Of a stretch of 64,000 nt of DNA, positions 16,679 to 31,550 are shown piece after piece. Each line of letters starts with the position of its first letter. Positions within the stretch are counted from its first letter, which is position 1. A program made the position numbers and the translations under genes. This stretch comes from Siphonobacter curvatus (lineage in GTDB: Bacteria; Bacteroidota; Bacteroidia; Cytophagales; Spirosomataceae). The notes below the pieces were generated by a model that was given only the letters and a program-made list of their open reading frames with translations, searched no databases and was not told where the DNA came from. The DNA lies in assembly GCF_002943425.1 (NCBI RefSeq), contig NZ_PTRA01000004.1, positions 1 to 64,000 of the forward strand, in the 5' to 3' direction.

Positions 16679-17854
16679 GTGCAACGCTCTATTCCCTATT
16701 CCGAACGTTTTTCCGCGAACCGTATGATCCTGGAACCAACCTACCAGGCAGCCCGACTAGTGGCGGCAACGATAGAAACCCATTTTGCCCAGCAACTCAC
16801 CTCTACCTGCAAGGCCAAGTGCCAGCCGCTGGCTCCGAACCCTCCGGCTCGCGTCATCGAAGCCATGATTGATGCAGCGTTTTGGGCCAGCTTACGGCAT
16901 GAAGAAGGGTATTCACCCAAAATTTCACTGGCTTACATTTCAATTGAACAGGCGGATCAGCCCCTTGTATTCGAACACCGTCTGCCCCTGACGCCAGCAG
17001 TACTTACCAAACTGGCTCCGGCCGTCGAGCGACCCGGTATTCACCTGGGTATTGGCTACGAAAACGATGAACTATTTGTCTGGGGTACGACCCGGGAGAT
17101 TCCCGGTAACTGCTTTGTACTGGAAGTGATTGAACCGGGTCTGCTGGTAGTGAAACACCGCCGCCTGGCCGGATACGGAAAGTTTGTGAACGTAGCCATT
17201 CTGAAGGGCGATCAGGTAAAAATTGTCGATAACAGCCTCACGGACCTCCCCGATTATCTGGCTTCGCTCACGTGTATGCCGGGTTTTCAGGCTTCGCAGG
17301 GCAAAAATGTACTCGTACAACTGGCCGTATCGATGCGGGCTCATGGCCGGGGAGGTTCCCTACTGGTAGTGCCTTCGGGCTCAGAAGCCTGGCGGGAATC
17401 CATCATCCAGCCCATGACTTACCCCATTGTTCCTCCGCATTCGCAATTGGCGGATCTAATGCGACACAATCTCTACGAAACAACGCAGTATAGCTGGCAG
17501 AAATCGTTGGATTTGTCCATCGAAAGCATGGCTGGCTTAACGGCGGTGGACGGAGCGACCATCATCAACGATCAGTATGATCTACTGGGTTTTGGAGCAA
17601 AAATTGGTCGCTCAGAAACGAGCGCCCGCGTAGAACAGATTCTCGTATCGGAACCTATCATCGATCAGACCACTACCATGGTTCATTCCACGCAGACCGG
17701 TGGTACGCGGCATTTGTCAGCGGCTCAGTTTGTCTATGATCAACGCGACGCGGTAGCTCTGGTGGCCTCTCAGGATGGCCGTTTTACGGTATTTGTCTGG
17801 TCACCAGCGGAAGAAATGGTACACGCCCACCGGATTGATTCACTTTTACTTTAG
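16679..17854 (+). CDS. DACNV (DisA_N-like) putative nucleotide sensor protein
   Basis: 391 residues from a GTG; an ATG at 16724 would remove 15 residues. The C-terminal half resembles the diadenylate cyclase fold: GRGGSLLVVPSGS (about 223-235), D291-G292-A293 in VDGATI, and GGTRHLSAAQF (341-351). The DGA and RHR signatures of DisA-type cyclases correspond here to DGA and RHL (R344, H345, L346). The N-terminal half (TYQAARLVAATI onward) fits the DACNV family, described by comparative genomics as a predicted sensor domain related to DAC. There is no membrane segment or partner domain. It may bind or make a cyclic dinucleotide, but activity is not established. It is monocistronic and ends at an intrinsic terminator. 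Confidence 0.72.
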   Translation: MQRSIPYSERFSANRMILEPTYQAARLVAATIETHFAQQLTSTCKAKCQPLAPNPPARVIEAMIDAAFWASLRHEEGYSPKISLAYISIEQADQPLVFEHRLPLTPAVLTKLAPAVERPGIHLGIGYENDELFVWGTTREIPGNCFVLEVIEPGLLVVKHRRLAGYGKFVNVAILKGDQVKIVDNSLTDLPDYLASLTCMPGFQASQGKNVLVQLAVSMRAHGRGGSLLVVPSGSEAWRESIIQPMTYPIVPPHSQLADLMRHNLYETTQYSWQKSLDLSIESMAGLTAVDGATIINDQYDLLGFGAKIGRSETSARVEQILVSEPIIDQTTTMVHSTQTGGTRHLSAAQFVYDQRDAVALVASQDGRFTVFVWSPAEEMVHAHRIDSLLL

Positions 17855-18304: not shown

Positions 18305-18668
18305 AGAGAATGTGCGTTTGCCTTGACATTTTCTCTATCTATCACAACTAATCGTGAAAGGATAACATTTCGCCGTAAAAAAATCTATACTTTTTTACGG
18401 TTGCACCTGATCTGTTTGTTTTTATTGATCTTGGATAAGAAATTTTTCTTTATTTTAGTATCGATGGTGCTACTTAGAATCACACATGCACAAGCCTATA
18501 TTCTTTCTTGGCGATAGGCTGAATTTTAGCTTCTTAACAAATAATTTTTTAGAGTTGATAACCTTTTGTTACATCCGGGGATAGATGAATAAGGTTCGGC
18601 GTTTCATTCGTAACCGTCAGCCCGTGAGTAAAACCTGAGTAACTTTAGGATGAATACGTACGCTTCTT
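18305..18668. other. 364-base AT-rich intergenic region
   Basis: Divergent gap between the YegP-like gene and the sigma factor operon. A TAACTTTA at 18640-18647 resembles a -7 element for the sigma gene, but no convincing -33 element was seen. No coding potential or repeats were recognised. Confidence 0.5.
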
Positions 18669-19313
18669 ATGCCTCCAATTAACCCATTACCGGATTCGTC
18701 AAAAAGGAGTGAAGAAAAACGCATCGAGGCTCTACGCGTCAACGACGCCGATGCCTGGCGGGATTTTTACCTGGAAGTATCGCGAATTTTCATTCCGTAT
18801 GCTTTGCAACGAAGCTCTATTTCGGAAGATGATGCCTATGATGTATTTCAGGAGGCTATGATCGAATGTTCGCTAAAAATTAAAGACGGCCGCTTTCAGT
18901 TTCAGGGTAAGCCCGTCACCGCCTACGCCTTTACGATTTGCCGGTATCGCTGGATCAATTTTGTAAAAAGACAGAAACCAACTGATTCGTACCAGGAATG
19001 GTCCCTGGAAGAGGATAATCCGTTTCTCGACGATGAGACCGAATCCACTCCTTCGTCCAGTCAGGATTGGGCTGACCCTGCCCATTGGTGGGGAGACGAA
19101 ACCGTAGAAGCCGATTTACAAGCCTTACAACGGGCGAAAGACGAACTTTCCGACACCTGCCGAACGCTGATTGAGTGCTTTTACGTCGAAGAAAAATCAC
19201 TGGCCGAATGCGGTATCCGCCTGGGCATTCAGGAAGGCTCCGCCAAAGTAAAACGATTCCGCTGTACGCAGCGATTCCGGGAACTCTACCTCACGTACCG
19301 TAAAAAAGAATAA
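18669..19313 (+). CDS. ECF-type sigma-70 factor
   Basis: 214 residues. Region 2 spans about 28-98 (WRDFYLEVSRIFIPYALQRS, DAYDVFQEAMIECSLKI, AYAFTICRYRWINFVKRQK). An acidic linker of about 40 residues rich in D, E and S follows. Region 4 spans about 145-205 (DTCRTLIECFYVEEKSLAECGIRLGI, then SAKVKRFRCTQRFRELY). It is the first gene of a three-gene run with a membrane protein that looks like its anti-sigma and an exported papain-like protease. It probably controls this run and perhaps the convergent protease/caspase operon. It carries no C-terminal sensor extension. The target promoters are unknown. Confidence 0.88.
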   Translation: MPPINPLPDSSKRSEEKRIEALRVNDADAWRDFYLEVSRIFIPYALQRSSISEDDAYDVFQEAMIECSLKIKDGRFQFQGKPVTAYAFTICRYRWINFVKRQKPTDSYQEWSLEEDNPFLDDETESTPSSSQDWADPAHWWGDETVEADLQALQRAKDELSDTCRTLIECFYVEEKSLAECGIRLGIQEGSAKVKRFRCTQRFRELYLTYRKKE

Positions 19314-19316
19314 GTC

Positions 19317-20060
19317 ATGTCTTTATCCGAAGAATCCATTAGCCAGGTTGGAGCTTACGTAAACAACCAGATGAATACTGACGAGCGGCTGGATTTTGAA
19401 CGCCTACTCGATCAAAACCCCGAGCTGCAACAGGAGTTACAAATTCAGCGGGAACTGAAACAGGGCCTCTTGTGGCTGAAAGAAAAAGAACGTTTTCAGC
19501 AGATCCACCAGGAATTGCGGGCTCAGGGTGTGTTACCCCAGGCTCCGCAGTCTGAAGCCAAGCAAGTGGCCTTTACCCCCCGTCCGGAAGCAGGCCTCAA
19601 GCGTTGGTACGGTTGGGCGGCAGCGGCTTCGCTGGTACTATTGGTGGGTTTAGGCTGGCTTTGGTTGCGTCCGGTTGATACGGGAGCCCAGTTGGCTGAC
19701 CAGTACATCCATGCACCCAAGTCCGCTCTTTCACCCATTGATGAGGGCGAAGACCGGCTCGGAACTCCTCTTCCCACTACTCAGTTGCAACAGGATTCCC
19801 TTCAGTTGCAACAGGCCGTAGCCCTGCTGCAATCGGGTCAGGTGGAGACCGCTCTTTCCCAACTTAAGCCCTTGACGCAACACATCACCAATCACTGGAA
19901 CGCCAGTGCTCAGTGGTACCTGGCTTTGGCTTATTTGAAAAATCAGCAGTCGCAACAGGCTCGAATATTGATTGACTCGATTGCCGAAACAGCCGGACAT
20001 CCCTACCAGCGGGAGGCTCATCAGCTGGCCGAACAATTTGCTCATCAAACTGCCCGCTAG
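19317..20060 (+). CDS. Single-pass membrane protein, anti-sigma-like with TPR-type C-terminus
   Basis: 247 residues, starting 3 bases after the sigma gene. The N-terminal cytoplasmic part (about 1-60) resembles anti-sigma N-termini (VGAYVNNQMNTDERLDFERLL, then a helix rich in Q and E) but has no zinc-binding His-Cys-Cys set. One membrane helix lies at about 99-117 (GWAAAASLVLLVGLGWLWL). The periplasmic part (about 150-247) holds paired helices (ALLQSGQVETALSQL, AQWYLALAYLKNQQSQQARILI) in the manner of a short TPR. Position and shape suggest it holds the upstream sigma factor at the membrane. Direct binding is inferred. Confidence 0.7.
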   Translation: MSLSEESISQVGAYVNNQMNTDERLDFERLLDQNPELQQELQIQRELKQGLLWLKEKERFQQIHQELRAQGVLPQAPQSEAKQVAFTPRPEAGLKRWYGWAAAASLVLLVGLGWLWLRPVDTGAQLADQYIHAPKSALSPIDEGEDRLGTPLPTTQLQQDSLQLQQAVALLQSGQVETALSQLKPLTQHITNHWNASAQWYLALAYLKNQQSQQARILIDSIAETAGHPYQREAHQLAEQFAHQTAR

Positions 20061-20896
20061 TGAATCCACGCATCTGGTTTGCCCTGCTTTTTTTCGGTAG
20101 TCTGGCTCTAAAAGGACTGGCCCAGCCCTTACCCAAAACCGGACTGGTTTTTGACGACGAGGCCTATGAGCAATTGCCCTATGAGCCTGTGTTGACGAAA
20201 GCTCCCCTTCCGGCCCGCGTCAGTTACGAAGCCTACTGCCCTTCCATTCAGGCGCAGGGACCGTATAGCACCTGCGTAGGCTTTGCCTGTGGCTATTACC
20301 TGCAAACGATTCTGGAGGCTAAAGCTCGCGGACTCAACAAACGGGCTATGATTGATCAGCTCGCTTTTTCGCCGAGTTACCTCTACGAAAAGGCAAAGGT
20401 CCAGCAGGATTATAGCTGTACGGAAGGCGTTTCGCTGGTGAAAGTACTGCAAATCATGCAGCAAGTGGGCAATACCCCCATGCGGAGCTTCCCCTACCCC
20501 GCCTGCGGACAAAAAACGGCCCGAGCGGATCAACTAGCCGCCCGGTTCCGCATTAAAGGCTTTGAGCGGATTTTTAAGTTACAGGACCCCGACGCGGTCA
20601 AGATACGTTCGCTGAAAAAATCCCTCGCCGAAGGTAAACCAAGCGTAATTGGCATGGTGATTCCGGCTTCGTTTTACTACACCAAGAAAGTATGGCAGGC
20701 GGCTCCGGGTGACAATCCTCAAAATCCGGATTTGAAAGGTCACGCCCTCTGCATCATTGGCTACGACGACGACCTCCACGGTGGAGCCTTCCGCGTTATT
20801 AACAGTTTTGGTAACGACTGGGCCGATCATGGTTTCTGCTGGATAACCTACCGCGACTTGGCCCGCTTTGTCAAGTATGGGTTTGTGTCGAACTAA
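20060..20896 (+). CDS. Exported papain-like (C1 family) cysteine protease
   Basis: 278 residues from a GTG whose first base overlaps the stop of the preceding gene. The signal peptide ends at ALKGLAQ (about residue 22). The catalytic set is present: Q66 of the oxyanion hole and C72 (QGPYSTCVGFA), H228 (GHALCIIGYDD), N248 (NSFGNDWADHGFCW). There is no propeptide of normal cathepsin length, only about 35 residues with FDDEAYEQLP...VLTK. The protease on the opposite arm (23664-25082) shares this N-terminal module and the core, but also has a C-terminal extension that is absent here. It should act in the periplasm or outside. Its substrate and its link to the sigma/anti-sigma pair are unknown. 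Confidence 0.88.
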   Translation: MNPRIWFALLFFGSLALKGLAQPLPKTGLVFDDEAYEQLPYEPVLTKAPLPARVSYEAYCPSIQAQGPYSTCVGFACGYYLQTILEAKARGLNKRAMIDQLAFSPSYLYEKAKVQQDYSCTEGVSLVKVLQIMQQVGNTPMRSFPYPACGQKTARADQLAARFRIKGFERIFKLQDPDAVKIRSLKKSLAEGKPSVIGMVIPASFYYTKKVWQAAPGDNPQNPDLKGHALCIIGYDDDLHGGAFRVINSFGNDWADHGFCWITYRDLARFVKYGFVSN

Positions 20897-21054
20897 AACG
20901 CTTCAGCTTTACGTCTTTCCACCGACAGGTCTGTATCGCTGACTCAGGATTCCAATCTTTCCGTAACCAACCAGATCCTGAGCTTGTGCGGGCTTTCCCT
21001 GATTCATTCCCCATCTTTGCTCCACTTAAAATCATAAAACTGAACAACCGATCC

Positions 21055-21393
21055 GTGGAAAATTACGCTCCTTTTAAAATCAAAGCTGACGACTATTACT
21101 TGATCAAAGCAGAAGTCGAGTTATTACCCGAGTACATGATGCTGTTTGCTAAACACGGGTACGAACCCAATGGCTACTGCTGGGAAGGGCATATCATTCA
21201 GATTTTAGAGAAGGTCAATCCCGACTTACTGGCTCATATTGAATTTGATCCGGAAGCGGGTGGCTTTTACGCAGTGGCTGATTCCGAAGCCAGTCAACTA
21301 GCCTTTGTGCATACGCTCAGCCCTATTTTCCAGGATATGGAAACGCTGGAAGCATACATTCGTACGGCGGATCGTGAACGCGTTGACGATTAG
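21055..21393 (+). CDS. Imm51-like immunity protein
   Basis: 112 residues from the GTG at 21055 (MENYAPFKIKADDYY). The frame is open back to a GTG at 20986, but the upstream residues look non-coding. The core KHGYEPNGYCWEGHIIQILE, then LLAHIEFDPEAGGFYAVADS and LSPIFQDMETLEAYI, agrees with the Imm51 family of polymorphic-toxin immunity proteins. No toxin gene with a recognisable nuclease, deaminase or peptidase tip is beside it. It follows the C1 protease by 158 bases and may be an orphan immunity gene or serve another binding role. It is the last gene of the plus arm. Confidence 0.65.
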   Translation: MENYAPFKIKADDYYLIKAEVELLPEYMMLFAKHGYEPNGYCWEGHIIQILEKVNPDLLAHIEFDPEAGGFYAVADSEASQLAFVHTLSPIFQDMETLEAYIRTADRERVDD

Positions 21394-21413
21394 CATTTAC
21401 GCTCCTATTCGAT

Positions 21414-21470
21414 GTCTGATATAGCGAAGGCCCTACCAAACAGTTTGGTAGGGCCTTCGCTATATCAGAC
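21414..21470. terminator. 28-bp perfect palindrome between convergent arms
   Basis: Arms 21414-21441 and 21443-21470 are exact reverse complements around a single base. It separates the end of the Imm51-like gene from the end of the ten-gene minus-strand operon and should terminate transcripts from both sides. Confidence 0.75.
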
Positions 21471-21566
21471 GTTACGCATACTTTTTACTAGTTCAAGATC
21501 CTAAGCATGGTACCTGAACGTAAAACCGTACAGTCTTTGCGATCAGGCGTATTGAAAATTTACGCC

Positions 21567-22151
21567 CTACTTTTCTACCTTCTCGCCCATCTTTGCCGTA
21601 ATCCGGTCGCCTTCGCAGAGTATTTCGTAATAGTAGCCATCACTGAAGGCCACTTTCGAGCCACATTTGCAGCAACGGGTATTATAACCATCCGTCTGAA
21701 TCTGCGTACCGCCGTGACCGTCGCTGACCAGAAAAAAGGACTCGCAGTCCAGACAGTATTCACTTCCTTTGACCTTCGTTCCGGCGGGCAGGGACGTCCG
21801 TTCAGCTGTCTTCTCCCCGCTTCGTAGGGCTTTAAATGCGGCCTGTACTTCTACCGTATCTTTTCCCTGTACGGCATAAAACGTAATGGGATGGCCGTTG
21901 CGTTGAGCCACCGGAATCTGAAATACGCTATCGAGTTGCGAACGTCCCGAGCGACCGTTGATAAACACAATGGGCGTACCGTCACCCCCTCGCGTGCTAA
22001 GCATCAGTTGAGACGTCCCTTTTTTGGCAATCCGTACCGTCAGGCCAGGAGTGGGTGCTGTGGTTAGTTTACTGAGGGTCCAACCCACCAGTGCTAGTAA
22101 TCCCAGAATCAATACAATCAGGGTAACTTTTCCTATTTTGGTCAATCGCAT
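21567..22151 (-). CDS. Membrane-anchored protein with C-terminal zinc-ribbon-like Cys cluster
   Basis: 194 residues. One N-terminal membrane helix (about 8-27, VTLIVLILGLLALVGWTL) is followed by a polar beta-rich region (about 35-110). A Cys cluster comes next: C133 and C136 (YCLDCESF) with C160, C161 and C163 (TRCCKCGSKV), which suggests a small metal-binding ribbon. No family is recognised. It is the last gene of the minus-strand run, 15 bases after the DUF4384 gene, and most of the protein should face the periplasm. Confidence 0.7.
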   Translation of the reverse strand: MRLTKIGKVTLIVLILGLLALVGWTLSKLTTAPTPGLTVRIAKKGTSQLMLSTRGGDGTPIVFINGRSGRSQLDSVFQIPVAQRNGHPITFYAVQGKDTVEVQAAFKALRSGEKTAERTSLPAGTKVKGSEYCLDCESFFLVSDGHGGTQIQTDGYNTRCCKCGSKVAFSDGYYYEILCEGDRITAKMGEKVEK

Positions 22152-22166
22152 AACTGGTTGGTAAGG

Positions 22167-23660
22167 TTAGAAGCCTTTCGCTTCGCGAGTAGTGATTTGA
22201 ATATGATCTTCGGCAATTTTTCCATCATTGTTCTTACGACACTTCATGAGGGTCTGAAAGGCCGCCAGCGAACCGACAAAAATCCGGTAACCGCCTTCGT
22301 TTCGCACGTAGCCCTGCTGACTGGGAGCCGTCGGTAAAGGGCAAAAGGCTTCCTCGGAAGCGTAGGCCAGCAGGTATTCCGTGCCGTAAGGAGGCGAGCA
22401 GATAAAGGCCGACTCGGGTGAGATGCGAACGGGCGTATTTTCCTGACCGGGTTTGATAACAAAATCGGATTCGAGGAGCGTTTGGGTACCATCCGCCAGA
22501 CGATACAGGAGTCGCAGGTGACAGGGTCGGTTAGCCGTAGCTTCCAGAATCATTTGCTGTCCCGCCCAGTATTCTACACCGCTACGGCCCCGATCGGTGC
22601 GAATTTCAATTTTCAGAGCCGATTTAGTCGTCGTGGTAATCTGTCGTAAGGTATCCTGTACGTTTCGAACCCGTTCGTAGTTTTCGGGTTTTAACGGCAA
22701 CTTCTGCTCTACCAGCCAGCTCAGCGGAAGCTCGGAACTACGACCCTGAGCCAGTACCTTCCGGCTGGCTCCATCCACCACTTCCATGCGTAGGCGTAAC
22801 TGATTGAGGTCTTCTTCGTAGGAACCCCGAATGATCCAGGACTTTTCGTCGGACTCGGCCACGGATCGTACCGGTATTTGGGTATGCCGTTGCCAGCAGG
22901 AACTAAGCATGGCGAACACCTGATCTGACAAGGCATCGTTGATCCCGCAATTTTTGTACGTAAATCGCTCCAGTACCAGCCGTTTGACGTTCGGAGGCAG
23001 GTCTTTCTCTACCTGGGCCGTCAGGGTATCGAGCACCGATAAAAGGTCTTTAGGTTTCTCTAAAGTAGCCAGCGTCTGACTGGTAAAGGCCGTGATGGGT
23101 CGCTGCCCAACTTTAGAAATCCCTACAATTTTGAAATTCAGGAAGGAATTCAGGGTGGCATGAAAGGAAAACTGCACCCGAAACTCCGTTAAGTTTTCGT
23201 AAGTGAACGCCTTGTTCTGAGCATTCTGGCCCTGGAGCGTTTTAATCAGGTATACGTTCAGATACGGCTCCCCCGCGGTCGTCCGCTGAAAGTCGTACTG
23301 CACCTTTGACCAGTCGAGTGCATGAATGATTGGTTTTCCGCCCGAGAAAATCCGGCAGTCTTTCACATACTCCTCGACTGACGTTTGAGTACCCTTTGGT
23401 TCGCGAAACTCATTGAATATCAGAACTTCCTTGTCCCGCAATGCACCCGTAATCAGCCCTTTGAGCTGCGGTCGCAGGGCATCGAAGGGTTGATTGGCTT
23501 CGTAATGCGTCAGGATTTCGAGATTCGTCAGGTACTGATCGGTAATCAGCCGACGGGCATTCTGTATAATCTCGGTCTGTTGGGCAGGTGTATACGACTG
23601 AGCCCAAAGGCTGGATAAACCGCCCAAAAACCAGCCGAGCATTCCTAAAAATTTCTTCAT
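22167..23660 (-). CDS. Exported protein with C-terminal DUF4384 domain
   Basis: 497 residues with a signal peptide ending at SSLWAQ (about 21). The central part (about 25-340) is not recognised. A C-terminal region (about 350-435: LRLLYRLADGTQTLLESDF, then CSPPYGTEYLLAYASEEAFC) matches the DUF4384 pattern, a beta-sandwich often found with caspase-like or kinase modules. The last 50 residues hold two Cys and a QTLMKCRKN motif. It begins 3 bases after the C1 protease stop, which points to translational coupling. It might bind or present substrates to the protease, but there is no direct evidence. Confidence 0.7.
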   Translation of the reverse strand: MKKFLGMLGWFLGGLSSLWAQSYTPAQQTEIIQNARRLITDQYLTNLEILTHYEANQPFDALRPQLKGLITGALRDKEVLIFNEFREPKGTQTSVEEYVKDCRIFSGGKPIIHALDWSKVQYDFQRTTAGEPYLNVYLIKTLQGQNAQNKAFTYENLTEFRVQFSFHATLNSFLNFKIVGISKVGQRPITAFTSQTLATLEKPKDLLSVLDTLTAQVEKDLPPNVKRLVLERFTYKNCGINDALSDQVFAMLSSCWQRHTQIPVRSVAESDEKSWIIRGSYEEDLNQLRLRMEVVDGASRKVLAQGRSSELPLSWLVEQKLPLKPENYERVRNVQDTLRQITTTTKSALKIEIRTDRGRSGVEYWAGQQMILEATANRPCHLRLLYRLADGTQTLLESDFVIKPGQENTPVRISPESAFICSPPYGTEYLLAYASEEAFCPLPTAPSQQGYVRNEGGYRIFVGSLAAFQTLMKCRKNNDGKIAEDHIQITTREAKGF

Positions 23661-23663
23661 ACG

Positions 23664-25082
23664 CTACTGATGATCAATGGCTACCACCAGAGGTACTACC
23701 GAGCCAACGGCTTTGGGATCGACTTCAAAACCCACTGCGTCGGTACGGTACTTAATTTGGGCAGTAGGGATTAATTCGTCCTGAAGAGCCTGTTGTAGCC
23801 GATCCGTCAGATTCCCTGAACCTTGCTGAAGCTGACTTAGGATCGTATTGAACGTCAGTGGTTTTTTCGAAAAGAGAACGATCAGGTAGTCAGTCCCTTT
23901 GGTATCATCCAGGGTGATGGATTTATGATCGGCCGGGTACGCAACGGTGGTATGGGGGCCTAACGCGGAGCTGATGCCTGGAGCATAGGGAAAAAGCTGG
24001 CTCATCCGAAACGTTGTATCTGTACCGATCATGTACACATACGCCTGCTCGCTCGTATTAACCAGAGCCTTAAACGCCGTACCGGACGAATGACTTTCTG
24101 TAGTACGGTACAGCGTTAGTTCACGCGGATCATTACTGACGACCAATCCCTTTTGCAAGCTCCGCTGAGCCTGCAGTTGTCCGCCTTCCCGCAACCGTAA
24201 CTCCATCTGGCCTTTCAAGGCTACGGTTGTTTCAGCAATGGGTACGGTGAGGTCCGGAAAAGCCTGGTACGCTTCCCAGGTAAAACGGGCCAGGTCCTGA
24301 TACTTAACCCAGCAATAGCCGTGATCCGCCCAATCGCTGCCCCAACTGTTGACGATCCGAAAAGCTCCACCGTACTGAGCATCATCGTAGCCAATCACAC
24401 ATAGGGCGTGGCCCCCTTCCCGAGGCATTCGTTCATCCCCCGGAGCAGGCTGCCAGACGGTCTGCGTAGCAAAAAACGACAGGGGAGTCTGCATACCGAT
24501 CACGACGGGGTAGCCCTCGTTGAGAGCCTTCTTGATGGCAAGGGTTTTCTGAGCAGCGGGAGCCAGTAAGCCAAACAGGCGAATGACATCTCTAATTTTG
24601 TGCGTCGAAGCCAGCTCGTCCAGATCCTTGGTGGTATTGCCGCAGTTGGGGTACGGAAATGCTTCGTACTGCGGAGCACCGTAGGTTTTAAGACTACTCA
24701 GGGCATCGACCAGCCGAGAGCCTTCCTTGCACTCCAGATCCGTGGGAGCCTTGATTTTGTCGTAGGTATAGCTGGGGGAAAAAGCCGCTGCCTGATTGGA
24801 GGCATGCCGTTTGCGAATATTGTCGAGCATGGTCCGCAGGTAATAGGTACTGGCAAACCCCACGCAGGTGCTGTAGCCTTCGCCCTGATTCATGACGGGT
24901 GGAACGTACGCCTCGTAGGAAATACGTTTGGCCAGATGATCGTAGCTGTCTTTGGTAAGTACGGCTTTCAGGGGGAATTTTTCGTAGGCTGCGTCATCAA
25001 ATTTCAAACCCGTGGGGTATTTTTTCTGAGCAACAACCGTATTTAAACTCAGTACAAGGGCAAGTAGTAGAGCTTTTCTCAT
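23664..25082 (-). CDS. Exported C1 (papain-like) protease fused to DUF4384-like domain
   Basis: 472 residues. The signal peptide ends at NTVVAQ (about 19). The protease domain (about 50-285) has Q66 and C73 (QGEGYSTCVGFAS), H225 (GHALCVIGYDD) and N245 (NSWGSDWADHGYCW). A DUF4384-like beta domain follows (about 330-415: AYVYMIGTDTTFRMSQLFP, GTDYLIVLFSKKPL). Close similarity to the plus-arm protease in both the prodomain-like segment (TGLKFDDAAYEKFP...VLTK) and the catalytic core shows that the two are paralogues. It lies within the ten-gene exported operon that also encodes two caspase-fold proteases. Confidence 0.88.
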   Translation of the reverse strand: MRKALLLALVLSLNTVVAQKKYPTGLKFDDAAYEKFPLKAVLTKDSYDHLAKRISYEAYVPPVMNQGEGYSTCVGFASTYYLRTMLDNIRKRHASNQAAAFSPSYTYDKIKAPTDLECKEGSRLVDALSSLKTYGAPQYEAFPYPNCGNTTKDLDELASTHKIRDVIRLFGLLAPAAQKTLAIKKALNEGYPVVIGMQTPLSFFATQTVWQPAPGDERMPREGGHALCVIGYDDAQYGGAFRIVNSWGSDWADHGYCWVKYQDLARFTWEAYQAFPDLTVPIAETTVALKGQMELRLREGGQLQAQRSLQKGLVVSNDPRELTLYRTTESHSSGTAFKALVNTSEQAYVYMIGTDTTFRMSQLFPYAPGISSALGPHTTVAYPADHKSITLDDTKGTDYLIVLFSKKPLTFNTILSQLQQGSGNLTDRLQQALQDELIPTAQIKYRTDAVGFEVDPKAVGSVVPLVVAIDHQ

Positions 25083-25087
25083 GCCAA

Positions 25088-25627
25088 CTAAGGTTTGGGG
25101 GTGGCGGACAAGGTATTGGGGACTTCCGTAATTTTTAATTCGTAAATCTGCCAGTAATCGCTAGCGGGCGGCGTTTGCGACAAGGGAATGGTTACTTTCG
25201 AGACGCTCGAACTTTGGGGCTGATGATTCTCGAAGTGTTGTACGTCAAAGTAAATCGATGCGTAGCTGCTGTATTTCCCATTTTTATCTTTTTTCACATC
25301 CTGAAAATGAATCACTTTCACGGATTTCATTTGATAACGAACGCCCGACGAACGGTTTAGCTGACTCAGAAACTGCGGTACGGCAATCCATTTTTCGGTT
25401 TTATTGGGCAATTCCACAATGAAATAGCCCGAGGGAGCAAATAGCCATTCACACTGCTGCTGCAGGTACTTCAGGTCCTGTCCTTTTGTTTTTCCACTGA
25501 GCCAGTGCATTACCGTATCAAGCTTGGTGTCAATCGGCCAATGAATAGCTTCCCGGCTCTGGGCGTTCAAGCGCTGCGGAATTCCCAACAGGAGCAGCAA
25601 AACGAAGCCAAGTGCGTAAATTTTCAT
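25088..25627 (-). CDS. Exported protein of unknown function
   Basis: 179 residues, signal peptide ending at RLNAQ (about 23). The mature part is polar with alternating strands (YFIVELPNKTEKWIAVPQFL, VKVIHFQDVKKDKNGKY, ASIYFDVQHFEN) and a Pro-rich tail. No family recognised. It precedes the C1/DUF4384 protease by 5 bases in the same operon and shares its export route. Confidence 0.65.
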   Translation of the reverse strand: MKIYALGFVLLLLLGIPQRLNAQSREAIHWPIDTKLDTVMHWLSGKTKGQDLKYLQQQCEWLFAPSGYFIVELPNKTEKWIAVPQFLSQLNRSSGVRYQMKSVKVIHFQDVKKDKNGKYSSYASIYFDVQHFENHQPQSSSVSKVTIPLSQTPPASDYWQIYELKITEVPNTLSATPKP

Positions 25628-25717
25628 AGAATCAAAAACGAGGGCTTTTATTAAAATGAGCTTTACTCAAACATCACTCTCCTGAGCCTAAGGTTATCAT
25701 TCTCAATCTATAAATTT

Positions 25718-26554
25718 TCATTCTGGCTTCCAGAACGCTCGCAACGCGGGAGGTAAGTCTTGTGGCCTTTGCCCCAGATCACTGATCAGCCAGCCCGAAG
25801 GTTCAGTTTCCCGGCTGAACGACTGAATTTTTAGCCACCAGCCTTGATGGATCGGCCACCAAAGCTGACTGTCGAGCGAGAGCAGTACCTGAGCCTCTTC
25901 ATTAGCTACGGCTCGTACAAATGCCATCAATCGCGGTGAACGGTCCGGATGGATACAGGATCCGAAGTTCACGCCCACACGCATGATCCGGGGTAGAGCC
26001 ATGAAATTAAGTTCATGAGCATTCGGCGGAATGAATACGAGCGAATCTGTCGCGGACATTAAAGCCCCGGAGCTGGGCGGAAATTCGGCATCTACGTCCA
26101 ACAGTTGCCAGGACCAGTTACCGGCCTGCTGCTGTTTTTTCAAATACAGGTTTACTTTTCGTACCTCCTGCTGCCAGCGAATCTGGAGGCTCACCTCGGC
26201 GTACAGTCCTTCCTGGGTGGGCTGGATGGGCTGTTCGCCTAGCGTTTCAAGGCATTGCTCAACGAGGGAAGCCTTGGAGGCTAGTACCGAGGCATCCATT
26301 AGCTCCAGAACCCGCAGGTGTCGGGCGGTGGAGGGGCTTTCATCCAGAGCCGTTGTATCATTGAATTTCTTGAAAAAATCGCTTATGAAATGTATGCGAC
26401 TTTTCATGAAGGCTTCGGCAGGTTTCCGCTGAATCTGGACGAATGGTACGGCCGTAGTATCCCGATGGTTCTCCAGGAACAGCGAATCCGTTTCCTGAGC
26501 CCGCACCTCCCCTATTCCCGCCAGCAGTAGGCCTAGCATCAGCCCGCGTAGCAT
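25718..26554 (-). CDS. Exported protein of unknown function
   Basis: 278 residues with a short signal peptide (MLRGLMLGLLLAGIGEVRAQ). The mature sequence contains a helical segment (ARHLRVLELMDASVLASKASLVEQCLETL reduced to its key residues RVLELMD and LVEQCL) and a beta-rich middle with many Trp residues. There is no known domain and no catalytic motif. It starts directly after the stop of the preceding gene and lies 90 bases before the next one, the largest gap in the operon. Confidence 0.6.
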   Translation of the reverse strand: MLRGLMLGLLLAGIGEVRAQETDSLFLENHRDTTAVPFVQIQRKPAEAFMKSRIHFISDFFKKFNDTTALDESPSTARHLRVLELMDASVLASKASLVEQCLETLGEQPIQPTQEGLYAEVSLQIRWQQEVRKVNLYLKKQQQAGNWSWQLLDVDAEFPPSSGALMSATDSLVFIPPNAHELNFMALPRIMRVGVNFGSCIHPDRSPRLMAFVRAVANEEAQVLLSLDSQLWWPIHQGWWLKIQSFSRETEPSGWLISDLGQRPQDLPPALRAFWKPE

Positions 26555-27175
26555 TTACTGATTGGGCTTTTTAGGCTGAACTTCCGTCACGCGGACGTCG
26601 CCCAGTAGTACGGTCCATCGGTGCTCGGCATAGAATGGATCTTTCCGATTCCGCAGGTCTACCCCGAGTTGCTTGACCGTTTTGTCTTCGTACTGCATCC
26701 GACCATCCTTTCCCCGGCCCTGAAAATGCTGGAAATACGTGGCCGTGGTTACGTAACCCGTCTGGGTTTTCTCCCAATCCCCCACCAGAGCCAGGTCGTA
26801 AAACGTAATGTTTACGTCAAAATACTTTTTCTCCAGATTCCGTAACCGACGTAGGTATACGGTCAGCGGATATTCTTTCACCAGGAGTTTGCTTTTTACT
26901 GAACCCACCTGCATGCGGGAATCCGGTAAAAACAGCATCTGAGCATTTTCGATGGCCAGTTCCCGTACTTGTCCCGACTGCGAGGGATCAGCGATGATGG
27001 ACAGATACCGCTGAAATTCGGCTACTTTCTGCTGAGTCAGCTGCTGAAAATCCTTCAGCTGTTTTTCCGACAACTGATCATCGCGTACCTCTAATCCTTT
27101 CGTGACGGGTAAGGGCTGGGCCTGGGCTACGGAAGCCAGCCAACCAGCGAGTACCAGACTAACTACATATTTCAT
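26555..27175 (-). CDS. Exported protein of unknown function
   Basis: 206 residues from the ATG at 27173-27175, which begins a clear signal peptide (MKYVVSLVLAGWLASVAQAQ). A longer frame reaching back to 27268 overlaps the caspase gene and is rejected. The mature part starts with a helical segment (QLSEKQLKDFQQLTQQKVAEF) and continues with strands (YPLTVYLRRLRNLEKKYF, GYVTTATYFQHFQG, RWTVLLGDVRVTEV). It resembles the N-terminal half of the DUF4384 protein in the same operon in general style only. Function unknown. Confidence 0.65.
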   Translation of the reverse strand: MKYVVSLVLAGWLASVAQAQPLPVTKGLEVRDDQLSEKQLKDFQQLTQQKVAEFQRYLSIIADPSQSGQVRELAIENAQMLFLPDSRMQVGSVKSKLLVKEYPLTVYLRRLRNLEKKYFDVNITFYDLALVGDWEKTQTGYVTTATYFQHFQGRGKDGRMQYEDKTVKQLGVDLRNRKDPFYAEHRWTVLLGDVRVTEVQPKKPNQ

Positions 27176-27197
27176 GGGCTTGTACAAGGTTAAGGTC

Positions 27198-28304
27198 TTA
27201 CCAGATTTCCTGAATAGCGGCTCGCTCGTAGTGTATGCCATCTGCCGAAACGGTTGACAACCGCTCAATCAGATTGATTCGTTGAATTTTACCGGCGTTG
27301 AGGTATAGCCGCTGAATGACTTGTTCAATGGGCTGTACTTCTCCTAAGGTCGTATTGACGTAAATATCAATCCGGGCTTTCTTCGTGAAATACTCTTTCA
27401 CTTGCGTCAAGAGGGCGTACCGCTCAGCTTGGGGCCGCTCGACGTCCGTCAGTGCATTCAGGTACTGATTGATGCGTTGAAAATCCGGTTTGGGATCGGT
27501 TACGACGGCGGGTGGCTGTCCTAATAGGTGAATTTCGTAGATGGATTTACGGTCCCGCGTGGCAACGTGCTGATTGAGTCGGCCCTGCGTATCTTTTAAC
27601 AGGGCTTGCCAGGAAATACTCCGGTTGTACCGACTCGCTAGCTCCAGAGCTTCATCGAAAGCCCGCGTGTAGTAGCTGCCCGAATCCGCGTGGGCACAAG
27701 AGGTTTGCGGCGGCTGACTACTGGCAATGAGAACGTCCCCCGAGGCTTCACCAAATAGTTTCCGATACGCCGCATTAAGTGAATCGTTCGTCAGCGTAAG
27801 GCCCCGGATCAGTGGTTTGCCACCTACCATTCCCCGCGTATTGTTGGATAAATTGTTACAGCAATCCCCGAAACTGATGCATAAACGAGCTTTTTTAGTC
27901 TTAAGAGCCGTGTGCAACGCCTTTAGCGAAGGGTTCTGGCTCCGCTCCGCTGCTTCTTTGTGCAGGTACAGCAAAGGAAAAGCGTCGTTCCGCTTACTTT
28001 CGTTATAGCCGTGGCCGGAGTAATAGAAGAAGATAACATCCTGTGGTTCCACCTTCAGTGAATCGATCAGGCGATTCAGATTCGACCGATTCAGAGCGTC
28101 TCCTGACAGGGTTTGCTCGTTCAGCCGCACCCGTAAGGCCGAGGCAATCTGCGTACACTGCCGGTGCATGACTTCCAGATCGCGTTGACAGGCCGTTGAC
28201 AGCAGGGGATCTTTCGTATCAGCTACGAACAGGGCATGCAGCGTCTGAGCCTGTATTACCTGGTGAACGAATATTCCCAGCAGCAGCAGTAGTACTTTTT
28301 TCAT
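27198..28304 (-). CDS. Exported caspase-fold (C14) protease, short type
   Basis: 368 residues. A signal peptide (MKKVLLLLLGIFVHQVIQAQ) is followed directly by a caspase-hemoglobinase fold domain: strand LHALFVAD, then VIFFYYSGHG with H98, and LCISFGDCCN with C149 as the probable nucleophile next to C148. A C-terminal helical region (about 265-368) has no known domain. Bacterial metacaspase-like proteins usually cut after Arg or Lys, but the specificity here is not known. The start overlaps the end of the second caspase gene by 4 bases (ATGA), so both should be made in fixed proportion. Confidence 0.82.
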   Translation of the reverse strand: MKKVLLLLLGIFVHQVIQAQTLHALFVADTKDPLLSTACQRDLEVMHRQCTQIASALRVRLNEQTLSGDALNRSNLNRLIDSLKVEPQDVIFFYYSGHGYNESKRNDAFPLLYLHKEAAERSQNPSLKALHTALKTKKARLCISFGDCCNNLSNNTRGMVGGKPLIRGLTLTNDSLNAAYRKLFGEASGDVLIASSQPPQTSCAHADSGSYYTRAFDEALELASRYNRSISWQALLKDTQGRLNQHVATRDRKSIYEIHLLGQPPAVVTDPKPDFQRINQYLNALTDVERPQAERYALLTQVKEYFTKKARIDIYVNTTLGEVQPIEQVIQRLYLNAGKIQRINLIERLSTVSADGIHYERAAIQEIW

Positions 28305-29428
28305 CGTTCGCTGGGGTTAAACGTAAATTTCCCCCGGAAGCGTCCTTCAATGTAGGGTGGCTGACGGAAACCTCTTTTTTCCAGTCCAAAATCAATACGT
28401 TCGATCAGTTCCCGAATGTCGAGGTCCGGTGTATCAATGTGTTGAATGAGTTCACTGGTGAATAATCCGTTTTTCCCTTCCCCATCCTGAGCGGTTTTGC
28501 CGGGTTCGGTCGCGTACACGATCATGGTACCCACGGGTGGGTTGATGGTGGTATGGCTCATCTCTCCGATGCCGCGTTTCCAGGAACGGTACGGATTATT
28601 CCGGCAAGCATCCCAGAACACCAGATTGGAGCCATTGGGGTTCACTTCTTCCATACGAGCGACGAGCTGACGCAGTGGAAAGCAGTCGAACTGAACATCT
28701 GATTCACTGGCTGGATCGGCATCAACGGGTTGTACGTAATTGTCTCCATTGACCATCAGGCCATGACCGGCGTAGAAAAACAGACTGACGCCTTTGTCAG
28801 TCAATCCGTTTGTGAATTCGTCAATGGATTTCTTGAGTTCTTTTCGGCTCTGGTTTTCGCGGAATATGACGGTAAAGCCCAATTTTTGCAAGTGCTCCTG
28901 CAACGCTTTCCCATCATTTACCGGATTTTTGAGCGGGTGTTTCGTATACGAATCGTTGGCCACAATTAAAGCCGTGCGTTTGGTATGACCTGCGATAGCG
29001 ATTGGGTTAGCTGGGGTGGAAGTTGGCTCCGTTTGATAGGTAATATAATGCGACTCGGAAATGGTTTTTCCGGCACTATTGACGGCCACAAAATGTAATT
29101 CATTGGTTCCCGGCGTAAGCGTCAGTTCTTCACTGATTTCCTGACCGCAGCTTACTTTTTTAAATCCCCGGGCTTTGCTACTGAACGCTTTTCCGTTCAA
29201 CACGAACTGATACTGTGATACAGCTTCGGTAGATTGTACGCATACGGTAACTTTCAACTGCGGTTTTTCGACCGTCAGCTGGGGCGTGGATGGGTACTGC
29301 CAAACGATCCCCGGAGCTTTCAGAGGCACCTTAGGCGTTTCCCATTCGCCTTTAAATTTGTGATCATGCTGGGCCTGACTAAGCTGAGCCCCCGCCAGGA
29401 GTATTCCTAGAAGTAACGTTTTTTTCAT
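28301..29428 (-). CDS. Exported metacaspase-like (C14) protease with N-terminal Ig-like region
   Basis: 375 residues. Signal peptide to about 20, then a beta-sandwich-like segment (about 45-130: LKVTVCVQSTEAVSQYQFVL, GTNELHFVAVNSAG). The caspase domain follows (about 148-372): KRTALIVANDSY, SLFFYAGHG with H222, and LVFWDACRNNP with C275. Downstream are IVYATEPGKTAQDG and GLFTSELIQHI, typical of peptidase C14 domains. It is exported, unlike most bacterial metacaspases studied, and is coupled by overlap to a second caspase-fold protein. Confidence 0.87.
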   Translation of the reverse strand: MKKTLLLGILLAGAQLSQAQHDHKFKGEWETPKVPLKAPGIVWQYPSTPQLTVEKPQLKVTVCVQSTEAVSQYQFVLNGKAFSSKARGFKKVSCGQEISEELTLTPGTNELHFVAVNSAGKTISESHYITYQTEPTSTPANPIAIAGHTKRTALIVANDSYTKHPLKNPVNDGKALQEHLQKLGFTVIFRENQSRKELKKSIDEFTNGLTDKGVSLFFYAGHGLMVNGDNYVQPVDADPASESDVQFDCFPLRQLVARMEEVNPNGSNLVFWDACRNNPYRSWKRGIGEMSHTTINPPVGTMIVYATEPGKTAQDGEGKNGLFTSELIQHIDTPDLDIRELIERIDFGLEKRGFRQPPYIEGRFRGKFTFNPSER

Positions 29429-29433
29429 TGCCG

Positions 29434-30189
29434 TTAGAACGTTAAGTGATAGGCAAGGATGGGTGTATTGCCAAAGTACTGCACCGTAATGCGTTGCGAA
29501 GCGGTCCGTCTGAGACGATCATTTTGTACACCTTTGATGACACTGTAAATCACATCCGCCGCCAGAATCAGGCCAGCTCCCCGAAAGGCGTTCATGTAGC
29601 GTTTGCGGTGCTGGTTTGCTGCATCGTAGTAAGGCGTTGCATCCCGCTCGTAGGGCTCGCTCATGTAGCGGTCGTACTGTTCGTTAGCTTTTTGCCGTTC
29701 GAGAAAACCATAAACGAGCAATCCCCCGTAGGCAACCGTGATGAGCGGCCGGTAGCCCACTTTCCGGTGTACTAGCATATTTCCCAAACCGGGTACGGCT
29801 ATGGAAGCCAGAGCACTCAGGGGGCCCCGGCCAATGGTTTGCTTGCGGGGAGCTTCTTTTACACCAACAATGGGTTGAATGGCTTCGTCACCCATGGTAA
29901 AGCCGTCCAGAGCAAAGTCCCAGTAAATGACTTTATTGGTTCCAGACGACAGGTTTCTACCTACGTCTCCAGTAACGGTGCGAATCTTCAGCAAACCTTT
30001 GGTACGACTGGCAATTTGCAGGTAGACGGAATCCTGCTCGGTGAGCTTCTGTACGTCATAGGTAATCTTCATGCGATCCGCCGTGTAGTCCGTACGGATA
30101 TTCGAAACGACGGGCTGAGCAAGACTGAGCGATAGACAGCCTACTAGGAAAAGCCCGGTTAGGAGGCTTTTGAGGAGAAAGGTATTCAT
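29434..30189 (-). CDS. Exported/membrane protein with glycine-rich hydrophobic pair
   Basis: 251 residues. Signal peptide to about 25 (GCLSLSLAQ). An N-terminal beta domain (about 28-110: VVSNIRTDYTADRMKITYDV, KVIYWDFALDGF) is typical of proteins found beside caspases in Bacteroidota. Two hydrophobic segments follow (about 145-162 and 202-219) with ASIAVPGLGNML just before the first, similar in style to DUF5683-type membrane proteins. Possibly an outer-membrane or periplasmic anchor for the proteases; this is inference. It starts right after the LamG lipoprotein stop. Confidence 0.6.
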   Translation of the reverse strand: MNTFLLKSLLTGLFLVGCLSLSLAQPVVSNIRTDYTADRMKITYDVQKLTEQDSVYLQIASRTKGLLKIRTVTGDVGRNLSSGTNKVIYWDFALDGFTMGDEAIQPIVGVKEAPRKQTIGRGPLSALASIAVPGLGNMLVHRKVGYRPLITVAYGGLLVYGFLERQKANEQYDRYMSEPYERDATPYYDAANQHRKRYMNAFRGAGLILAADVIYSVIKGVQNDRLRRTASQRITVQYFGNTPILAYHLTF

Positions 30190-30191
30190 GA

Positions 30192-31550
30192 TTAATGTTT
30201 GAAGAGTTCAAGGATTTGAGCTTCAGTGAGGGGATTATCATAAACTCGTATGTCATCCATAGACCCTTTAAATACATAAGCATAGGTTCTCCATCCTGAC
30301 CCAAATCTTAAATTGCCTCCAGGACAATTACGAATACCATTTCCAGGTATTGCATTCATTCCCCATAGTTTTCCGTCCAAATAAGTCTTTGCTATAGGTC
30401 CATCAAATACAGCTACAAAGTGGTGCCATGACGTGATCTCTTGATGCTGCTTATTAGTTACGCCTTTCCAACCCATATCAAAACAGGGTTCTTTACCATC
30501 ATAGGGTTTTATATCAGCATTAATTGTTATATCTGGGTAAGTTCCAGCCATCAATTGAGCACTGTATTGTTCACTTACTGGTTCTGTATATCCAGACTTA
30601 TAATATAATTGCATTGTTGTACCAGCTTCTAATCTTGAAGCTGCCTTGAACCACATACTGACCGATATTTTATTAGGACGTAATTTTTCATTATCTGCGA
30701 TATCAAGATAACCACCGTCGAGCACTAACACTTTTTCATTATTGGTTTGGCGATCGTCATCTTTGGTTGCCCCAGTCCCTCTAATAATAGCAGCGTTATT
30801 ATTTCCACTTAAATCTAATACTTGATTTCCTGTAACATTATTGAAATCATAATAGGCTACCAGTCCTGTCCAAATGTCGGCATTGGTAGTTTGGAACTTC
30901 TTGACTTCTCCATAATGAGGTTCCCCTTTGCTATCTATGATATAGGAACAGTAGTAGTAAGAGACTCCAGGAGTAAGATTCGATAGGGCTATCACGGTTG
31001 AATCTCCCGCTGATACCGATGACAAAGACTTCGTATCGGCAGTACCTATTCGTGGCGAGCTGTTCGTGTAAGAATAACAGATTCCGTACTGATTAGCAGC
31101 CGGTAAGCCCGCATTAAGGAGTTTGAAGGTCACGTTGGCCGTAGTGTTGTTCACGCGTGAGGAGCCTCCGGTAGCTACACTGGGTACTATGTCCTGAACG
31201 ACCGTAACTGATTTAGTCACCGTAGCTTGATCGCCACATTTGTTGGTTAACTTCACCGATACCTGAAACGTCTTTGCTTCTTTATAGGTGTAGCTAGGAT
31301 TGAAGGTGCTTGCCGTGCCCCCATCACCGAAACTCCATTCAACTTTATCAAAATCGGCGGCGTTGACGTTTAGGGAAAAGTCAACCTTTAACTGATTATT
31401 AGCGACTACAATTTGGGCAGTAATGGGCTCGCATTTTGGGAAAATCCGTTGTGGAAATTTCTCTTTACCACAGCTAACTATCAGCAAAATGAGCGGGAAT
31501 AAATAGATTTTCAGAAAGGAAATAGTGACCCTACGTAGATGTTTTTCCAT
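30192..31550 (-). CDS. PKD/LamG surface lipoprotein
   Basis: 452 residues. A lipoprotein signal with the lipidated Cys at 27 (LFPLILLIVSC) is preceded by a basic N-terminus. A PKD-like domain (about 45-118: VEWSFGDGGTASTFNPSYTY) is followed by a fibronectin-like region (about 122-225: VSYYYCSYIIDSKGEPHYGEV) and a LamG/concanavalin-like lectin domain (about 230-450: LVAYYDFNNVTGNQVLDLSG, ISVSMWFKA, WHHFVAVFDG, FKGSMDDIRVYDNPL). It should sit on the cell surface and bind a glycan or protein. It is the first gene of the ten-gene operon. The coding sequence is visibly richer in A and T than its neighbours, which suggests separate acquisition. Confidence 0.82.
   Translation of the reverse strand: MEKHLRRVTISFLKIYLFPLILLIVSCGKEKFPQRIFPKCEPITAQIVVANNQLKVDFSLNVNAADFDKVEWSFGDGGTASTFNPSYTYKEAKTFQVSVKLTNKCGDQATVTKSVTVVQDIVPSVATGGSSRVNNTTANVTFKLLNAGLPAANQYGICYSYTNSSPRIGTADTKSLSSVSAGDSTVIALSNLTPGVSYYYCSYIIDSKGEPHYGEVKKFQTTNADIWTGLVAYYDFNNVTGNQVLDLSGNNNAAIIRGTGATKDDDRQTNNEKVLVLDGGYLDIADNEKLRPNKISVSMWFKAASRLEAGTTMQLYYKSGYTEPVSEQYSAQLMAGTYPDITINADIKPYDGKEPCFDMGWKGVTNKQHQEITSWHHFVAVFDGPIAKTYLDGKLWGMNAIPGNGIRNCPGGNLRFGSGWRTYAYVFKGSMDDIRVYDNPLTEAQILELFKH

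Follow-up and report, generated by a model that had tools for sequence, protein, structure and literature searches.

The role of caspase homologues in bacteria is a long-standing question, usually framed in terms of cytoplasmic cell death or immunity. Here we describe an island of genes for caspase-fold and papain-fold proteases at 18669-31550 of a 64,000-nucleotide stretch of Siphonobacter curvatus DNA (contig NZ_PTRA01000004.1, positions 1 to 64,000; hereafter the window). Siphonobacter is a soil-and-water bacterium. The caspases of this island appear to be exported, are paired with papain-type proteases, and seem to be wired to a dedicated sigma factor of the envelope-stress type. G and L numbers below are internal labels for genomes and loci; G000 is the window genome and G003 its closest relative.

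Gene content and predicted location of the proteases

Open reading frames and domain scans placed all genes of the island where a previous sequence-only reading had put them, and Pfam and NCBIfam matches confirmed the content that it had described for both arms. The plus arm encodes, in order, an extracytoplasmic function (ECF) sigma factor, an anti-sigma-like transmembrane (TM) protein with TPR repeats, the papain-fold protease C1a, and an Imm51-like protein. The minus arm converges on it with ten genes, which from 31550 encode a LamG/PKD lipoprotein, h251, the caspase-fold proteases C14a and C14b, h237 and h278, followed, after a 90-nucleotide gap, by h179, the papain-fold protease C1b with its DUF4384 domain, the 22167 protein, and a zinc-ribbon protein (Table 1). 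The start of h237 was corrected to about 27175 from 27268, a listed start that overlaps C14b. The ten genes had been taken for a single convergent run; the gene list holds, but there are probably two transcription units, as the gap (25628-25717) contains a promoter-like element.

Table 1. Genes and candidate promoters of the protease island, in window coordinates.
Feature	Position	Strand	Basis
Candidate ECF promoter of the sigma arm, GATAAC-N16-GGATA	18557..18583	+	exact match to GATAACN16NGATR
ECF sigma factor	18669..19313	+	TIGR02937 over cut-off
Anti-sigma-like protein: predicted cytoplasmic N-part, one TM segment (~residues 99-117), outside TPR part	19317..20060	+	TPR/PknG_TPR matches
C1a, predicted exported papain-fold protease	20060..20896	+	PF00112 E 2e-7; catalytic residues intact
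Imm51-like protein, outside the conserved system	20986..21393	+	PF15595 E 4e-12, over cut-off
Zinc-ribbon protein, predicted membrane-anchored, accessory	21567..22151	-	sequence; TM 9-27
22167 protein, predicted exported, NTF2-like + LpoB-like + DUF4384, core	22167..23660	-	PF14326; AF2/Foldseek
C1b, predicted exported papain-fold protease + DUF4384	23664..25082	-	PF00112 E 4e-9, PF14326 E 8e-8
h179, predicted exported NTF2-like-type protein	25088..25627	-	hhalign with h237, prob 83
Second candidate ECF promoter, GATAAC-N16-TGATG, before h179-C1b-22167-zinc ribbon	25672..25698	-	element match
h278, predicted exported, without known domain	25718..26554	-	conserved in island
h237, predicted exported NTF2-like-type helper, core	26555..27175	-	hhalign; start corrected
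C14b, predicted exported caspase-fold protease + partial NTF2-like tail	27198..28304	-	PF00656 E 7e-10
C14a, predicted exported caspase-fold protease, variable N-terminal part	28301..29428	-	PF00656 E 1e-32
h251, predicted exported, beta-domain + hydrophobic region, directly before C14a in these islands	29434..30189	-	sequence
PKD/LamG lipoprotein, fast-diverging	30192..31550	-	PF13385, PF18911

C14a and C14b are the only C14 genes in the window genome. Both combine a Pfam C14 domain with the His-Cys dyad, and in the island orthologues the histidine of the GHG motif and the cysteine of DAC or GDCC are intact and conserved, as is the Cys-His-Asn set within the C1 domain of the papain-fold proteases; catalytic residues have disappeared from some distant relatives that lie outside the island. 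Between G000 and G003 the ratio of nonsynonymous to synonymous substitution rates (dN/dS) is 0.04-0.08 for the proteases, indicating strong purifying selection, and this together with the retained catalytic residues makes the enzymes look active. A conserved aspartate two residues before the caspase cysteine may bear on an acidic S1 pocket and thus on cleavage after Arg or Lys. An AlphaFold2 (AF2) model of C14b (pLDDT 83, pTM 0.78) matches MALT1 and caspase-9 in Foldseek, and C14a matches MALT1 by phmmer (E 6e-13). The closest named relative is Siphonobacter sp. BAB-5405 (96% on C14b), and for C1b 53 of 99 relatives had a match. The part joined to the C14a caspase domain varies among relatives, being a TPR region in Larkinella and an FGE-sulfatase domain in G012 and G056. 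Separately, L277-L278 (G226 C21) holds an unusually large caspase array, a strand-consistent run of about a dozen caspase-fold genes around a sigma-antisigma pair.

That almost every product carries a signal peptide, as had been proposed, is supported by hydropathy: signal-peptide-like N-termini occur in 75/80 relatives of C14a, 55/58 of C14b, 43/43 of C1b and 18/20 of C1a, against 2/28 flanking-gene proteins used as a control. These N-termini mark the proteases as probably exported. A C-terminal sorting domain for type IX secretion was not found in an NCBIfam scan with E up to 0.1 that covered the products other than h278 and h237, so the periplasm or outer membrane is their likely site. The same evidence bears on the idea that these are secreted digestive or predatory proteases with which the cell feeds on protein or on other cells. 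Four exported proteases and a fast-diverging, surface-type LamG/PKD lipoprotein would suit such a role; the missing type IX signal, the habit of caspase-type enzymes of cutting few sites, which is not that of digestive enzymes, and the dedicated transmembrane anti-sigma control all speak against it, and we consider it very unlikely.

The remaining exported proteins may serve as helpers. The 22167 protein is modelled by AF2 (mean pLDDT 83) with an NTF2-like N domain, an LpoB-like middle and a DUF4384 end, and Foldseek matches it to LpoB (E 8e-5) and to the CaMKII hub, an NTF2-like oligomerisation domain (E 6e-4). In hhalign comparisons h237 aligns both to the tail of C14b and to the N-terminus of the 22167 protein (probability 92 in each case) and has a weaker profile link to h179 (probability 83), and a domain comparison of h278 with the 22167 protein gave no match, and 15 members of the h278 family scanned gave no credible Pfam match. 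Natural fusions join C14b to a DUF4384-type end in Fibrella (G013) and to h237 in G021, and in Larkinella and Spirosoma the island also encodes an M48 metalloprotease and a further LpoB/CsgG-like protein. The sharing of the NTF2-like module, the fusions, these added genes and the exchange of parts in C14a together suggest an assembled envelope protease complex, in which the NTF2-like module and the LpoB-like/DUF4384 protein, judging from the shared domains and the two fusions, probably bring the proteases together.

Conservation of the two arms and a candidate promoter element

In a survey of 223 genomes of the family Spirosomataceae, C14b is found in strong form at 42 places and the family of the 22167 protein, its DUF4384 partner, likewise at 42, and in 39 cases the two lie within 15 kb of each other. 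For the sigma subfamily 27 places stand out clearly, at 188-338 bits except for a split match in G004, and the next genomes score 92 bits or below. The sigma gene adjoins the island at 24 of these places; the other three are in draft Larkinella genomes, which have both arms on different contigs. C14b occurs in every one of the 27 genomes. A core of LamG-h251-C14a-C14b-h237-22167 homologue, convergent with C1a-antisigma-sigma, is retained in four other Siphonobacter, in Spirosoma, in Fibrella and in others, and neighbourhood maps show the order kept in Larkinella as well. G004 carries the island elsewhere in its genome: the DACNV gene, which flanks it in the window, is there about 30 kb away. 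In Dyadobacter the genes are collinear as C14b-h237-h278-h179-C1b-264aa-C14a-22167 homologue-sigma-antisigma, and in L283, assigned to Spirosoma from its handle group, as sigma-antisigma-C14b-h179-C1b-h237-h278-22167 homologue with small gaps, so that caspase and sigma genes can share an operon in these two cases; the window itself has convergent arms. No full-length homologue of the 22167 protein was found outside the family in a class-level sample of 395 genomes. The claim that the two arms form one system could have failed had the genes proved scattered in related genomes; this co-occurrence check instead supports, at the level of gene neighbourhoods, a single conserved system.

The sigma factor scores 54 bits against TIGR02937 (cut-off 42.9) and has sigma regions 2 and 4 with other domains absent, as expected of the ECF class. 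Linked to it is the anti-sigma-like gene, whose product has exactly one central TM segment in 34/34 relatives; its binding to the sigma factor is putative. By comparing upstream regions we derived the element GATAAC-N16-NGATR, which has exactly two matches in the 64 kb, both strands counted, where shuffling predicts 0.23, and both precede arms of the island. Across island upstream DNA the form with a 16-nucleotide spacer recurs in 7 clade-gene combinations, against a shuffled mean of 0.16 and a maximum of 2 in 1000. The copy before sigma is also present in G003 and G037 and, with spacers of 15-16 nucleotides or a looser -10, in G002, G005, Fibrella, Spirosoma and Larkinella. The minus-arm copy is conserved in G003; in other Siphonobacter it precedes h237, and in Larkinella C14a. 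Genome-wide, the TGATAACCT form with a correctly spaced GAT has six sites in the window genome, and a reversed control has none.

We conclude that the sigma factor is probably the dedicated regulator of the island, with the anti-sigma function and the use of the element by this factor both inferred. The proposal that sigma controls the minus arm thus gains a candidate promoter on each arm, but the minus-arm copy stands before only h179, C1b, the 22167 gene and the zinc-ribbon gene, four of the ten, and not before the caspases. An earlier candidate element near the sigma ATG (AACTTTAGGATGAATAC) was dropped, as it occurred only in Siphonobacter and had no copy on the minus arm. The other strong copies in G000 lie at C1:329555, C1:2692001, C2:13200 and C5:199819, before genes for a membrane protein, an XRE-type regulator, another membrane protein and an alcohol dehydrogenase, which are possible further members of the regulon. 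Elsewhere in the same genome, at L195 (C1:3688490), TGATAACCTT lies 110 nucleotides before a gene for an exported protein of the zinc-ribbon type.

Proposed envelope proteolysis and competing explanations

The explanation that we favour, at about even confidence, is that the island gives Spirosomataceae an envelope proteolysis module under ECF sigma control, which serves surface or envelope remodelling under stress. From its anatomy, the single-pass anti-sigma protein, with its outside-facing TPR part, would hold the sigma factor until an envelope signal arrives. The freed factor would then act through GATAAC-N16-NGATR to transcribe the sigma arm and, on the minus arm, the papain-DUF4384 part; in some relatives its targets would also include the caspase genes and an operon for curli amyloid. 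The exported caspase-like and papain-like proteases would act in the periplasm or at the outer membrane, held in one complex by the NTF2-like module and the LpoB-like/DUF4384 protein. The most likely output would be cleavage of envelope or surface proteins, after Arg or Lys in the case of the caspases, clearing or remodelling the surface during stress or biofilm growth; this substrate class is deduced from the enzymes and their setting. More speculatively, C1a, encoded right behind the anti-sigma gene, may cut the anti-sigma protein and so amplify the response. The LpoB/CsgG-like and M48 protease genes of the Larkinella and Spirosoma islands and the curli genes divergent from sigma are in keeping with an envelope theme. 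The full combination, an inducible, NTF2-held envelope proteolytic complex with its own ECF sigma/anti-sigma pair and a possible positive loop, which remodels the surface including the amyloid matrix and does not kill, is more doubtful, and we advance it only tentatively.

Several observations weigh against this explanation. The window has no copy of the element before LamG-C14a-C14b, where it was sought before LamG and C14a, so that sigma control of the caspases is putative in the window genome. The element was recognised by inspection before it was counted, its second block is only loosely defined, its strict form is absent from the Dyadobacter-type islands, and four of the six strong genome-wide sites adjoin unrelated genes. 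The split of sigma and caspase arms between contigs in three Larkinella genomes also counts on this side. Localisation was called by a hydropathy heuristic and not by a trained predictor, and the domain arrangement of the 22167 protein is uncertain because the pTM of its model is 0.49. Finally, curlin (PF07012) is absent from the window genome.

Curli genes lie divergent from the sigma arm in L106 (Spirosoma luteum), L281 (Spirosoma-like), G013, G021 and L273-L275 (Larkinella), and in several of these loci copies of the element point both ways between the two. At L106, where curlin repeats are found, curlin, CsgE and CsgF were identified by Pfam; across these loci CsgG-like and other genes were recognised by sequence. 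Such loci could mean that the sigma regulon builds and trims an extracellular amyloid or surface matrix, with the proteases processing or recycling matrix proteins. A complete operon (curlin, CsgB-like, CsgE, CsgF, CsgG-like) stands divergent from sigma, with back-to-back elements, in Spirosoma, Fibrella and Larkinella; element matches in 31 kb of flanking upstream DNA all precede curlin genes (Fibrella, Spirosoma); and the island itself contains LpoB/CsgG-type domains. However, the Dyadobacter and Siphonobacter islands have no curli neighbours, and the neighbourhood could be inherited linkage in one clade. Since the window genome lacks curlin, the curli link is clade-specific and curli is at most an optional member of the regulon, and we regard matrix maturation as an unlikely primary role.

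Periplasmic self-killing, or defence against phages or competitors, would have an attack on the envelope release the sigma factor and the proteases destroy the cell's own envelope. A patchy distribution (about 36 of the 223 family genomes carry strong C14b), the expansion of caspases in some islands (about a dozen genes in G226) and the proposed part of caspases elsewhere in bacterial immunity (PMC8195603, PMC7159879) would fit. Yet PADLOC returned only its generic caspase model at 23-30 bits and no described defence gene set; NTPase, STAND, TIR, nuclease and pore effectors are all absent; the proteins are exported and not cytosolic, with no conserved immunity partner; and sigma control with strong purifying selection better suits a stress role. 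Positive evidence for the suggested defence or self-killing was thus wanting, and we think it rather improbable.

A guard function had also been proposed for the Imm51-like protein. If the proteases were toxins that it neutralises, a Pfam match over the cut-off and a position adjoining C1a would be natural. Among all islands it occurs only in G000 and G003, and its synonymous divergence between these two (dS 0.035) is far below that of its neighbours (0.18-0.6), so we take it for a recent, separate insertion or exchange. An immunity gene conserved beside its toxin, as in polymorphic toxin-immunity systems, is not what these islands show; the guard was rejected, and an Imm51-guarded toxin system deserves almost no credence.

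Relation to described systems and accessory genes

The proposed envelope proteolysis module has partial likenesses in the literature. Metacaspase-sigma-70 operons were noted in Myxococcus xanthus and relatives, mainly deltaproteobacterial (Asplund-Samuelsson et al. 2012, PMC3501461). They too place a caspase-fold gene and a sigma-70-type factor in one operon, a likeness of linkage; here, in contrast, there are two exported caspases, papain-fold proteases, NTF2-like/LpoB-like/DUF4384 helpers, a TM anti-sigma-like protein and, in some genera, probable co-regulation with curli. The EACC1/EACC2-caspase conflict systems include ECF sigma and TPR genes (Kaur et al. 2020, 2021; PMC7159879, PMC8195603) and so share a constant caspase domain with a nearby ECF sigma factor and TPR protein, whereas here variable effector domains are absent and the proteins are exported. 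Assignment to the EACC-caspase system was rejected, with NF047832 at 32-41 bits against a cut-off of 140 and no effector domains. Factors of the ECF54 type have CHAT or subtilase proteases in their context and are controlled without an anti-sigma factor (review PMC8999054); the linkage of an ECF sigma factor to caspase-superfamily or other proteases is shared, but here a TM anti-sigma-like gene accompanies it. The curli type VIII secretion operons of Bacteroidota (Dueholm et al. 2012, PMC3521004) adjoin the island in Spirosoma, Fibrella and Larkinella and are probably co-regulated with it there. The proteases and sigma factor are not curli components, and a text search of PMC3521004 for protease or peptidase came back empty. 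The caspase fold is shared by MALT1 paracaspase and the bacterial GSU0716; in the island it belongs to exported bacterial proteins and comes fused with, or linked to, an NTF2-like module.

No combination of caspase, DUF4384 and sigma factor was found in the literature searched, with subscription papers outside the search. The claim that this content is undescribed therefore fits the searchable literature, in which the set of exported caspases, papain-fold proteases, NTF2/LpoB-like helpers and TM anti-sigma pair seems to be new, but caspase-sigma operons as such had been noted by 2012 (PMC3501461). These caspase relatives probably work outside the cytoplasm, and the promoter element, the two arms and the culturable hosts (Siphonobacter, Spirosoma, Dyadobacter) make the caspase question directly testable.

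The accessory genes vary more. Dyadobacter has a comparable membrane-looking protein of 262-264 aa in place of h251. Between the window and G003 the LamG/PKD lipoprotein shares 71% identity, with dS about 0.97, against 88-99% for its neighbours, and its gene (30192-31550) has a low GC content of 0.385, suggesting a surface protein that changes fast or has been exchanged. The zinc-ribbon protein is restricted to Siphonobacter and G046. In L066 (15274-18315) and L081 (14235-17270) a Tubulin_2 gene of about 1010 aa lies between the DUF4384 gene and the zinc-ribbon gene, so that in these two genomes the zinc-ribbon protein is linked to a tubulin-like locus. Just outside the island, 16679-17854 encodes a protein with a DACNV sensor domain and a weak DisA-like (DAC) match, which adjoins the island in most Siphonobacter genomes examined.

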